Below, in pieces: positions 35,760 through 40,259 of a DNA stretch of 64,000 bases. Each line of letters starts with the position of its first letter. Positions within the stretch are counted from its first letter, which is position 1. The stretch is from assembly GCA_944319885.1 (NCBI GenBank), contig CALUFC010000003.1, positions 1 through 64,000 of the forward strand, given 5' to 3'. Position numbers and translations under genes: made by a program. The stretch is from an uncultured Coriobacteriaceae bacterium (GTDB lineage Bacteria; Actinomycetota; Coriobacteriia; Coriobacteriales; Coriobacteriaceae). Below the pieces are notes generated by a model. It saw only the letters and a list, made by a program, of their open reading frames with translations, did not search any database and was not told the origin of the DNA.

Positions 35760-36944
35760 ATGGGGCCCGCCAAGGTCTATTTCACGAACCTCCGTACCTA
35801 CGCCAAGGAAAGTCAGCTCGACAAGCTGAAGCGGCTCATCAAGAAGGCCGGCATTGGCGAGATCGACTTCGAGAACAAGTTTGTCGCCATCAAGATTCAC
35901 TTCGGCGAGCTGGGCAATTTGAGCTTTTTGCGCCCCAACTATGCGCGCGCCGTGGCGGATGTGGTGAAAGAGCTGGGCGGCAAGCCCTTCCTTACGGACT
36001 GCAACACGCTCTACGTGGGCAGCCGTAAAAACGCGCTTGAGCACATCGACTGCGCCTATCAGAACGGCTTCACGCCATATGCCACCGGTTGCCACGTCAT
36101 CATCGCCGACGGTCTCAAGGGTACCGATGAGGCGCTCGTGCCGGTGAAGAACGGCGAGTACGTGCAGGAGGCCAAGATCGGCCGTGCTCTCATGGATGCC
36201 GACATCGTGATCTCGCTCACGCACTTCAAAGGTCATGAGCAGGCTGGCTTCGGCGGCTGCATGAAGAATCTCGGCATGGGCGGCGGTAGTCGCGCCGGCA
36301 AGATGGAGCAGCACGCCGCCGGCAAGCCGAGCGTTGCGCCCGAGCAGTGCATCGGCTGCCGCGCATGCGAGCGCATCTGTGCACATGGAGCCATCTCGTT
36401 CGAGCAGACGCGCGAGCGCGAGCTTGCGAACGGCCAGGTGCGCACGGTGCCCGTGGCCTCGATTGACCACGATCGTTGCGTGGGCTGCGGCCGCTGCATC
36501 GGCGCGTGCAACCAGGATGCCATCGAGCCCGATTACGATGCCGCAGTCGACGTTCTCAACTACAAGATCGCCGAGTACACGCAGGCCGTGGTGCAGGATC
36601 GTCCGAGCTTCCATATCTCGCTTGCGCTCGATATCTCGCCCAACTGCGATTGCCATGCCGAGAACGACACGCCCATCGTGCCCGATCTGGGCATGTTCGC
36701 GAGCTTCGATCCCGTGGCCATCGACCAGGCGGCCATCGACATGGCACTCGCCGCGCCCACGCTGCCTAACTCTGAACTCACCGACATGAAGGCCAAGCTC
36801 GAGGCGGGGGGCGGTATTCCCGAGCGCTGCCAGCACGACCACTTCAACCTCACCCATCCCGACACCAACTGGCGAAGCATGATCGAGCATGGCGAGAAGA
36901 TCGGCCTCGGCACAAGCAGCTACGAGCTCATCGAGGTTAAGTAA
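35760..36944 (+). CDS. DUF362 domain protein with two [4Fe-4S] ferredoxin motifs
   Basis: A 394-residue cytoplasmic protein. The DUF362 region surrounds a ferredoxin insert with two cluster motifs, CIGCRACERIC (near residue 197) and CVGCGRCIGAC (near residue 240). Conserved DUF362 parts include VAIKIHFGELGN, the FGGCMKNLGMGGGSRAGKMEQH stretch and, near the end, FASFDPVAIDQAAID. The family is assumed to act in redox reactions in anaerobes, but no substrate is established. GAGGGGAAG precedes the ATG. It fits an anaerobic, ferredoxin-rich metabolism together with the ferredoxin gene at the far end of the window. Confidence 0.85.
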   Translation: MGPAKVYFTNLRTYAKESQLDKLKRLIKKAGIGEIDFENKFVAIKIHFGELGNLSFLRPNYARAVADVVKELGGKPFLTDCNTLYVGSRKNALEHIDCAYQNGFTPYATGCHVIIADGLKGTDEALVPVKNGEYVQEAKIGRALMDADIVISLTHFKGHEQAGFGGCMKNLGMGGGSRAGKMEQHAAGKPSVAPEQCIGCRACERICAHGAISFEQTRERELANGQVRTVPVASIDHDRCVGCGRCIGACNQDAIEPDYDAAVDVLNYKIAEYTQAVVQDRPSFHISLALDISPNCDCHAENDTPIVPDLGMFASFDPVAIDQAAIDMALAAPTLPNSELTDMKAKLEAGGGIPERCQHDHFNLTHPDTNWRSMIEHGEKIGLGTSSYELIEVK

Positions 36945-37000
36945 CGGGCAGCCCTGTCACCGTTCAGGCTTCTGTTCAAACATACCCCCTCCCACATGAC

Positions 37001-37033
37001 TTGACGCGCGAGCAGGGAGGGGGGGGGTATTGT
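37001..37033 (+). promoter_or_regulatory. Promoter with a G9 tract in its spacer
   Basis: TTGACG (37001-37006) and TATTGT (37028-37033) are 21 bases apart, four more than optimal, and the spacer contains nine consecutive G (37019-37027). The tract is also the right arm of an imperfect inverted repeat with 36982-36993; the left arm has only five C. Loss of four G would give both a perfect repeat and 17-bp spacing. This is a plausible slipped-strand switch for the surface protein gene. Confidence 0.5.
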
Positions 37034-37074
37034 CTTGAATATATGGTTGAATGAGTAATGAAAAGGCTGGTTGC

Positions 37075-39309
37075 ATGTTGCGTGAAGTTCGAGGCGTGCA
37101 CGTTCGCGTGTTTTGCGTTGCCATGTTCGCTGTTTCCCTCGTTGTCGCTTTCGCGGCACCGGTAGCGGCGTTTGCCTCAGATGATGCCGGCAATGATACC
37201 GGTGCGTTTACCGTTTCGGACGGGACGTACGGGACGGATTACACATATGCCGACGGCGTGTTGTCCATCACGGGCGGATCGGTGCAGGTTGCCAACACTG
37301 ATCCTGCGCAGGCAACATCGAACCGTATCGAGATCAGCGGACGCGCCACGGTCACTTTCAGGGGGCTCAATATCGAGACCGCAGGCTCCGAGTCACCCGT
37401 GACGGTGGACGATACGACGGCGACCAATGCCGAGATTCGCCTCGCGGGAGAAAACCACCTCAAAGCGACGGGCGAGGCCGCAGCGCTCCGCAAGAGCAGG
37501 GGACAGTCGGGCGGCAACGACACGAGCGCGCTCAAGATCACGAGCGCCGCAGGCGATGGAAGCATCTCGGGCTCTTTGACGGCCGAGGCGACTAATTGGC
37601 GAGCCGCCGGTATCGGTGCCTATGGTTATCATGGCGATGTTGCCAATCTCGAGATCGCGGGCGGCACGGTTGCGGCGAGCGGCGGCAGCGATGCCGCCGG
37701 CATTGGGTCGAGCGACGGTGGCTCGGTGTGGAACGTCGTGGTGAGCGGCGGGGTCGTTACCTCCATCGGTGGATACGGCTTTGGCGCCGGCGGCTGGTCC
37801 AGCGGCGCGGGTTCGCGCGACGCCAAAATCACGGGCGGTATCGTGCTCACCAACGCCTATGCGGGTAACGAGCTCGCGGGCGGCATGGTAAGTACCGACA
37901 ACGGCGCTACATGGACGGTCTCTGCCTCCATGGAGCTTCCGGCGGATTTCGGGCTCGCGGAGGGATCAAAGCTCATCATCCCGCAAGGCGTCGAACTCAC
38001 CGTGCCCGAGGATGTGACGCTCGCCAGCAACGGGTCCGTTGAGTGCATGGGCTCGATCGCCGGCAGCCTGCAGAATAACGGCGACCTGTGGTGCGGCAGC
38101 GGCGTCGAAGACAGCCAGCTTGCCGGCGAGGGTGCGGTTCACCGCTATGAGGTCGAGGTCACGGGCGGCACCGGCTCGGGTGCCTACGACCCGGGCGATC
38201 CGGTTGCCATCAGCGTCGATGCGCCAACTGACGGCGTGAGAGTTTTTGACCATTGGAGCGTCGTCGGCGGTACAGCTGAGCTCGATGACGCGCAGGCCGC
38301 AGAGACCACCTTCATCATGTCCGACGGCTTTGCCCGCATCGAGGCGGTGTACCGCTATGTGTGGGGCACCATCACCACGGCGGATGGCGTGACGATTCAG
38401 CTCACGACTGATCAGGCGGACGGGGGCAGAGCATACTTCGATACGTTTGATTGGCGTAGGCATCCTAACAGCACGCTCACACTCAACTCCGCCTACTACG
38501 ACGGCGTGTGGAATATGCATATGCTCGTGTTTCCGTATGAGGGCGGAATTTTGGACTTGGATGGCGCGACGGTCGAGACGGACTATCCGGCCGTGTCTGG
38601 GGACGGCACCTATACGATCAAGAACGGTGTTGCACGGTGGTTCCGCGACTTTGGCGTCATGCGCGGGACGCTCACGGCGCAGGACGTGCGCTTCGAGCCG
38701 ATTAGCCCCGATGATGTTGCTTATATCCAGGTTGGATCGGGTGCAACCTTCATCAACACCGGTGGCGTGTCGTTCGGCGAGGGTGTGAGTTTCCAAAACG
38801 ACGGCACGGTGCACACCGTCTGCAACGACACATACGACTACGGCGGCGTCGTGATTAAGGATCCACACGTCTTTGACCAAGCGGTAGCGACCGATGCGTA
38901 TCTTGCGAGCAAGGCAACCTGCACGGAGGCAGCGCAGTATTACTACTCCTGCACGTGCGGCGCGGTCGGCACGGAGACCTTCTTGTCGGGCGACCCCTTG
39001 GGACACAGTTGGACGGCGACCGAGACCATCCAGCCCACCGCGACCGAGCAAGGCTATACCCTCTACACATGTGAGCGCTGCGGCGTGACCGAGCAGCGCG
39101 ACTTCGTGCCCGCCACGGGCACGGGCGAGGCCGACTCCGGCCAAGGCGGCACGGGTACGAACGGCGCCCCGGGTGCCTCGAGTTCCGCGCAACGGCCAAC
39201 GAGCAGCGCAATCCCTGCTACGGGCGATAGTTCGGCAGCGTGGGTGGCTTTGGCTGTTGCGGGTACGGCAATCCTTGTGCTCGGCATGCGCTGCCGCAAG
39301 GCGGCATAG
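37075..39309 (+). CDS. Sortase-anchored cell-surface protein
   Basis: A 744-residue exported protein. The signal peptide covers about residues 1-34 (hydrophobic core FCVAMFAVSLVVAFAAP). The middle is repetitive and rich in Gly, Thr and Asp with beta-type repeats such as LEIAGGTVAASGGSDAAGIG. Next come segments with YEVEVTGGTGSGAYDPGD, and then Cys-rich units (CTCG, GHSWTATETI, CERCG) of a kind found in surface proteins of gut Gram-positives. It ends in IPATGD, a variant LPxTG motif, then a hydrophobic span and RCRKAA. AAAAGG precedes ATG 37075; ATG 37051 would add eight residues. Expression may vary through the upstream G tract. Its ligand is unknown. Confidence 0.82.
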   Translation: MLREVRGVHVRVFCVAMFAVSLVVAFAAPVAAFASDDAGNDTGAFTVSDGTYGTDYTYADGVLSITGGSVQVANTDPAQATSNRIEISGRATVTFRGLNIETAGSESPVTVDDTTATNAEIRLAGENHLKATGEAAALRKSRGQSGGNDTSALKITSAAGDGSISGSLTAEATNWRAAGIGAYGYHGDVANLEIAGGTVAASGGSDAAGIGSSDGGSVWNVVVSGGVVTSIGGYGFGAGGWSSGAGSRDAKITGGIVLTNAYAGNELAGGMVSTDNGATWTVSASMELPADFGLAEGSKLIIPQGVELTVPEDVTLASNGSVECMGSIAGSLQNNGDLWCGSGVEDSQLAGEGAVHRYEVEVTGGTGSGAYDPGDPVAISVDAPTDGVRVFDHWSVVGGTAELDDAQAAETTFIMSDGFARIEAVYRYVWGTITTADGVTIQLTTDQADGGRAYFDTFDWRRHPNSTLTLNSAYYDGVWNMHMLVFPYEGGILDLDGATVETDYPAVSGDGTYTIKNGVARWFRDFGVMRGTLTAQDVRFEPISPDDVAYIQVGSGATFINTGGVSFGEGVSFQNDGTVHTVCNDTYDYGGVVIKDPHVFDQAVATDAYLASKATCTEAAQYYYSCTCGAVGTETFLSGDPLGHSWTATETIQPTATEQGYTLYTCERCGVTEQRDFVPATGTGEADSGQGGTGTNGAPGASSSAQRPTSSAIPATGDSSAAWVALAVAGTAILVLGMRCRKAA

Positions 39310-39452
39310 TGTGCCTCGTCGCATGTCGCGATGTGATGAGGCAGCCGCGCAAACGGGGCGTATTCATGTTACGTCCGAGCGCGGCCCTGTTGCGGTGCAT
39401 TTTAATTTGCTATGATTCTGAGCGGTCTATCTTTGGAGGATTGCTTTAGCAG

Positions 39453-40259
39453 ATGTCCGCATCGAGCGACAGTTCAACATCTCGAAGTACGTCGGGCGCA
39501 CCGGATGCGCCCGATCCTGCCGCTATGCAGGAAGACGTTTGCGCAACATGCCGCAAACGCCGCCGGTCCTGCCCCAAATACCCCCGCGAACAACAGCATG
39601 ACGCCCAAGGCCACGATGCAGAGCAGCCGCTCTACACCTTAGGCGAGGAGATCGCCAATGCCATCACGCATGGCATCGGCGTGCTATTGGCCATCGCCGG
39701 ACTGGTGCTGCTCATCGTGAAGGCCGCGCTCGGCGGGGCGGAACCCACGCATGTCGCCTCGGCGATCGTGTTCGGCGTCACCCTCATCTTGGAATACCTC
39801 GCTTCGACGCTCTACCACGCCATCGCGGTGCCGGGGGCGAAACGCGTGTTCCGCATCATCGACCACAGCAGCATCTATCTGCTCATCGCCGGCAGCTATA
39901 CGCCGTTTTGCCTCATTACGCTTGCCGATGTGGGCGGTATCCCCATGTTCGTGGTGGTGTGGGCGCTTGCGTTCGCCGGCATCTCGTTCGAGATCATCTT
40001 CCGTCAGCGCCAGCCGCGCTGGGTTACCATCCTTATCTATCTCGCGATGGGGTGGCTCGTGGTCTTTCGCCTGTTCGAGCTCATCGCAGCGCTTGATCCG
40101 GTGGCGCTCGCCCTGCTCGTGGTGGGCGGGCTGTGCTATACCATCGGCACCGGCTTCTATGTCATGAAGCGCATTCGCTACATGCACAGCGTTTGGCATC
40201 TTTGGGTGCTTGCCGGAAGCATCTTCATCTTCATGGCGGTGATCCTGTACGTGATTTGA
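39453..40259 (+). CDS. Hemolysin III / TrhA family membrane protein
   Basis: A 268-residue protein. About 65 hydrophilic residues, including a CxxC-x8-C cluster (Cys30, Cys33, Cys42), precede a seven-span PAQR-like domain. This has the hallmarks EEIANAITHGIGVLLAI, STLYHAI, IDHSSIYLLIAGSYTPF and MHSVWHLWVLAGS, whose His and Asp residues form a metal-dependent hydrolase-like site. Members are linked to membrane-lipid homeostasis; true hemolysin activity is doubtful. The Cys-bearing N-terminus is unusual for the family. TTGGAGG lies about 16 bases before the ATG, rather distant. An extended -10 (TGCTATGAT) is at 39408-39416. Confidence 0.88.
   Translation: MSASSDSSTSRSTSGAPDAPDPAAMQEDVCATCRKRRRSCPKYPREQQHDAQGHDAEQPLYTLGEEIANAITHGIGVLLAIAGLVLLIVKAALGGAEPTHVASAIVFGVTLILEYLASTLYHAIAVPGAKRVFRIIDHSSIYLLIAGSYTPFCLITLADVGGIPMFVVVWALAFAGISFEIIFRQRQPRWVTILIYLAMGWLVVFRLFELIAALDPVALALLVVGGLCYTIGTGFYVMKRIRYMHSVWHLWVLAGSIFIFMAVILYVI

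Follow-up and report, generated by a model that had tools for sequence, protein, structure and literature searches.

The window, meaning the whole stretch of DNA that was analysed, is 64,000 nucleotides long and comes from the 2.02 Mb genome of an uncultured Coriobacteriaceae bacterium, here called G000. On its plus strand, a gene for a DUF362/4Fe-4S protein that is conserved in relatives (35760-36944) is followed by a gene for a 744-amino-acid surface protein (37075-39309), and then by a gene for a haemolysin III family protein (39453-40259). The listed open reading frame of the surface protein is 37051-39309. The ATG at 37075 is a likelier start than the one at 37051 because a Shine-Dalgarno-like AAAAGG, read from the sequence at 37061-37066 on the plus strand, lies 8 nt upstream of it and the signal peptide MLREVRGVHVRVFCVAMFAVSLVVAFAAPVAAFA follows directly after it. 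Behind the signal peptide is a beta-rich body, and the C-terminus is IPATGDSSAAWVALAVAGTAILVLGMRCRKAA, whose IPATG ending we take to be a sortase-type sorting signal.

Comparing the window protein with Pfam, NCBIfam and PDB sequences gave nothing useful. Its homologues in three other genomes (G294, G374 and G020), which share 41-42% identity with it, carry a divergent InlB B-repeat domain above the Pfam cut-off, and that of G020 likewise has a sorting-like signal, LASTGD, at its end. The predicted structure of the window protein is beta-rich with a mean pLDDT of 65, and its structure matches, to beta-helix adhesins and to the polysaccharide-lyase-like Cthe_2159, are weak, none having E < 0.001. 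The signal peptide, the IPATG sorting signal and the domains of the homologues agree with the original prediction that this gene encodes a sortase-anchored surface protein. In a close relative (G003) the DUF362 gene adjoins the haemolysin III gene, the surface gene is missing, and a hairpin follows DUF362. Judged from sequence, the surface gene is an insertion between those two neighbours. The window promoter region was found in no other of the 67 family genomes, and promoter and gene together are absent from all other genomes compared, which leaves the site itself without conservation. A comparison with a phage collection gave no match.

The best hexamer pair between DUF362 and the surface gene consists of a -35-like TTGACG (37001-37006, plus strand, five of six letters of TTGACA) and a -10-like TATTGT (37028-37033, plus strand, four of six letters of TATAAT), a score of 9/12 for the two as read from the sequence. 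The spacer between them (37007-37027) is 21 bp long, and it contains a tract of nine G's at 37019-37027 on the plus strand, which directly abuts the -10 and which the sequence and the class-wide motif described below mark as the proposed slippage element. The coordinates and letters of the hexamers, G9 and spacer, and of the left arm of an inverted repeat, had all been given before and were correct on re-reading. Between the promoter and the likely ATG are 41 bp. A scan for standard sigma-70-like promoters with 16-18 bp spacers found none in 36600-39500, and apart from TTGACG-21-TATTGT no plausible hexamer pair precedes the surface gene; we infer that this pair is used as a sigma-70-type promoter. 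A coding G-tract switch of the Bifidobacterium pilus type, which acts on the frame, was rejected for the window site: the tract is not inside a reading frame, and it ends 47 nt before the ATG at 37075 and also before the ATG at 37051.

The G9 at 37019-37027 is the sole run of G or C of at least 8 in the window, and it is one of eight tracts of G9 or longer in the genome. Bare G8 runs were neither rarer nor commoner than dinucleotide shuffles predict (2 matches, shuffle mean 2.45), so any significance must come from context, that is from the position in a promoter spacer, the recurrence in relatives and the class of gene downstream.

The tract is also part of an inverted repeat, which is longer than first described. 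The left arm, originally given as ATACCCCCTCCC (36982-36993), extends to TTCAAACATACCCCCTCCC (36975-36993), and only one position is left unpaired when it is aligned, using two gaps, with 37019-37039. The right arm as a whole (37015-37039) contains both the G tract and the -10. Removing four G's from G9 would bring the spacer to 17 bp and make GGGAGGGGGTAT a perfect partner of the originally described left arm, which is arithmetic and not evidence. The repeat had been proposed as part of the switch. This was not borne out: at the other poly-G promoters the inverted repeat is weaker or absent, and it was ruled out as a general component of a poly-G switch. It is peculiar to the window site, where it may function as a terminator or operator. 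Tract and repeat together might then be the operator of a regulator, a G-rich, hairpin-forming DNA-structure element or the terminator of DUF362, with length not the regulatory variable. An extended repeat of this score is improbable by chance (7/5000 shuffles and 4/4568 other window stretches score as high), the hairpin would be strong if transcribed (-41 kcal/mol, z -2.15), and the hairpin after DUF362 in the relative points the same way. Such a role for the tract is nevertheless quite unlikely, since the repeat does not accompany the other poly-G promoters and the one-G length differences found elsewhere would be left unexplained. The intrinsic terminator in particular was rejected, since the stem is not followed by a run of T's and the scan called no terminator. 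An invertible promoter was also rejected: the arms are separated by 21-25 nt, and the -10 falls inside the right one, so the whole promoter is not flanked. The idea that the hairpin belongs to a mobile or repeated element was dropped as well, the 129-bp region having only short, chance-level matches in the 67 family genomes.

Whole genomes were then scanned with the pattern TTGAC-N5..14-G8-N0..6-TAnnnT, and with the pattern reversed or with C8 in place of G8 as controls. The 67 genomes of the family held 9 sites, compared with 0 for the reversed pattern. Of the 398 genomes of the class, 41 held sites, 52 distinct ones in all; the reversed pattern gave 5 and the poly-C pattern 16. In a phylum-wide sample, sites occurred in 8 of about 358 genomes outside the class and in 41 of 398 inside it (Fisher p ~5e-6). 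About 70% of sites have the tract directly against the -10 (35-36 of 51-52; p ~1e-18 against even placement), and 33 of 35 abutting sites have a spacer of 15-20 bp. The commonest sister-site spacer is 19 bp; this mode was dropped as proof on its own because the range that the search pattern permits centres near 19.5. The informative features are the abutment to the -10 and the restriction to 15-20 bp, not the spacer mode. The 21-bp spacer of the window site is longer than that of nearly all sister sites.

These counts bear on whether, in GC-rich DNA, a G run simply came to lie between two hexamers that resemble promoter boxes. G8 runs at the frequency expected from shuffles and an atypical spacer would fit such a coincidence, which is nonetheless very improbable given the near-empty reversed-pattern control, the presence of two such sites in G000, the bias toward surface genes downstream, and hexamers that are conserved around tracts of variable length.

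Some genomes carry several such promoters. Three near-identical ones, with G13, G13 and G14, lie on separate contigs of G385 (C42, C118 and C192; L128, L129 and L130), and they are apparently a repeated promoter cassette. G334 has two poly-G spacer promoters on one strand, separated by about 5 kb (C1:2550090 and 2555198; L088 and L121). Both precede a secreted protein, one of which resembles the window protein at its N-terminus.

The second poly-G spacer promoter of G000 (C1:511512-511542; L053, about 1013-1043) lies upstream of a DUF6020 gene whose product has multiple transmembrane segments, and its tract has one G more in G003. Other tracts in the same genome are in coding sequence. An in-frame G9 (G000:C1:133714) follows closely on the start of a giant secreted protein (L061:986-7999) in which nine FctA isopeptide domains are combined with a VWA domain, which suggests a pilus-like gene with a candidate translational switch. 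An in-frame G11 (G000:C3:134764-134774; L062:5904-6800, minus strand) sits just after the GTG start of brxA, and the ORFs that follow resemble brxB, brxC and pglX; BrxA was assigned by HMM and the other three by size, order and reading. This tract at the head of a BREX-like operon suggests a phage defence that may be switched by slippage. Elsewhere in the genome (C11:49425; L065, about 1426), a G9 stands beside an inverted repeat, ATACCCTG/CAGGGTAT, with no clear gene downstream.

The genes behind the sister sites are biased toward the cell envelope. By a crude rule for signal or transmembrane segments, applied identically to sister ORFs and to the window background, a hydrophobic N-terminus was called in the downstream ORF at 39 of 56 sites (~70%) compared with 5 of 41 long window ORFs (12%; p ~1e-8). 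The 56 are the sites with downstream sequence; four of them lie outside the class, and some form near-identical pairs between related species. Four sister genes that were completed carry a sorting signal at their end: IPQTG (G015), LAATG (G020), LPKTG (G014, whose product also has BspA-type LRR and Cna_B domains) and LPPTG (G198). Other products are DUF6020 membrane proteins (G000, G003 and G081), a DcuA/DcuB transporter (G284 and G298) and CWB2 cell-wall proteins. Signal-peptide-like starts were also seen in the ORFs behind the few poly-G spacer promoters outside the class (L142-L145).

Homologous promoters differ in tract length by one G with their hexamers unchanged: G8 in G015 and G9 in G086, with almost identical flanks; G9 in G000, at its second spacer promoter, and G10 in G003; and G10 in G284 and G9 in G298. 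These comparisons are between species, with one genome per species, and come from assemblies of which some are incomplete, so that as read from assembled sequence they show length instability over evolution and not switching within a culture. The G9 length at the window site may itself be an assembly error. In G294 and G374 the window protein has distant homologues whose tracts are of another kind, G7 and G10 respectively, and lie inside the region coding for the signal peptide (L091 and L092, near 1477-1501). Neither tract is in frame with the start codon to which the Shine-Dalgarno sequence belongs. The same surface protein family thus has G tracts in two different control positions.

Altogether, the G9 of the window is probably a contingency (phase-variation) element that switches transcription of the surface protein. 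This explanation rests directly on the promoter layout, which recurs more often than the control patterns, on the kind of gene that follows it and on the one-G differences at homologous promoters. Weighing against it are a spacer beyond the range of nearly all sister sites, a -10 that matches at four of six letters and the absence of the site from other genomes. Slipped-strand mispairing at replication would add G's to the tract or remove them, and each gain or loss would change how far apart TTGACG and TATTGT lie, which would switch transcription of the surface gene. A spacer of 21 bp points to low expression in the clone that was sequenced, where the surface protein would probably be weak or off, while cells that have lost one to a few G's would express it. 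The original prediction of a porA-like poly-G switch is strengthened by the class-wide recurrence, the one-G differences, the bias toward secreted and membrane proteins and the coding tracts of the homologues, but it loses the role of the inverted repeat and the specificity of G5. Singling out G5 as the active allele is not supported by the sister spacers, and since these are 15-20 bp, most often 19, loss of one to three G's could suffice.

A former switch that has drifted to 21 bp and no longer fires, leaving the gene silent or read from elsewhere, would account for a spacer exceeding nearly all sister sites and for the lack of another good promoter nearby. We regard such a relic as unlikely, for no break interrupts the 744 codons of the ORF, the signal peptide and the sorting signal are both present, and the G9 is uninterrupted and long enough to slip back. 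Returning to a working switch, there is good reason to see the window promoter as one member of a promoter type that recurs in the class, and as one of several G-tract switches in its genome. More broadly, and with somewhat less confidence, we lean toward the view that a whole class (probably Coriobacteriia) shares a stereotyped promoter, TTGAC(A)-N-poly(G)-TAnnnT with the tract directly against the -10, as a phase-variation module. It would serve sortase-anchored proteins and others of the envelope, and together with the coding-tract switches of pili and BREX it would form a multi-locus phasome. The class name was derived from gene content, GC and genome size; the ATO291 16S probe sequence did not occur in the assembly, which either lacks the 16S gene or is one to which this probe does not apply. 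If so, the class diversifies its surface (adhesins and pili), and perhaps its phage defence, by stochastic poly-G slippage, and both population averages and single assemblies would misreport the state of the surface. Candidate loci could be listed by a simple motif scan. The open-licence literature yielded nothing that connects phase variation and homopolymers with Coriobacteriia, or phase variation and slippage with Eggerthella. The mechanism is already known; the class-wide pattern may be new.

The closest known system is porA of Neisseria meningitidis (van der Ende et al. 1995), in which, according to PMC7864442, a poly-G tract lies between the -35 and -10 and a change of spacing alters transcription. 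Like porA, the window site has a poly-G tract separating the two boxes of a promoter that serves a surface protein. It differs in that the effect of length is inferred for the window, the spacer is 21 bp, the host is of high-GC Gram-positive type, and the product is sortase-anchored, whereas porA encodes an outer-membrane porin. In opc of Neisseria and the tpr genes of Treponema pallidum, the length of a promoter homopolymer likewise alters transcription of a surface gene, but in those genes the homopolymer overlaps with one of the promoter boxes and does not act through spacing (PMC7864442), whereas the window tract lies wholly in the spacer. In the sortase-pilus genes of Bifidobacterium breve, coding G tracts switch frame via replication slippage, and further G tracts in promoter spacers are mentioned without data (PMC9187656). 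That system resembles the window site in phylum, in G-tract length, in its sortase-dependent surface proteins and in replication slippage, which is proposed for the window site. Its studied tracts are in coding sequence, whereas the window tract is in a promoter spacer, and it is the homologues in G294 and G374 that have the coding type.
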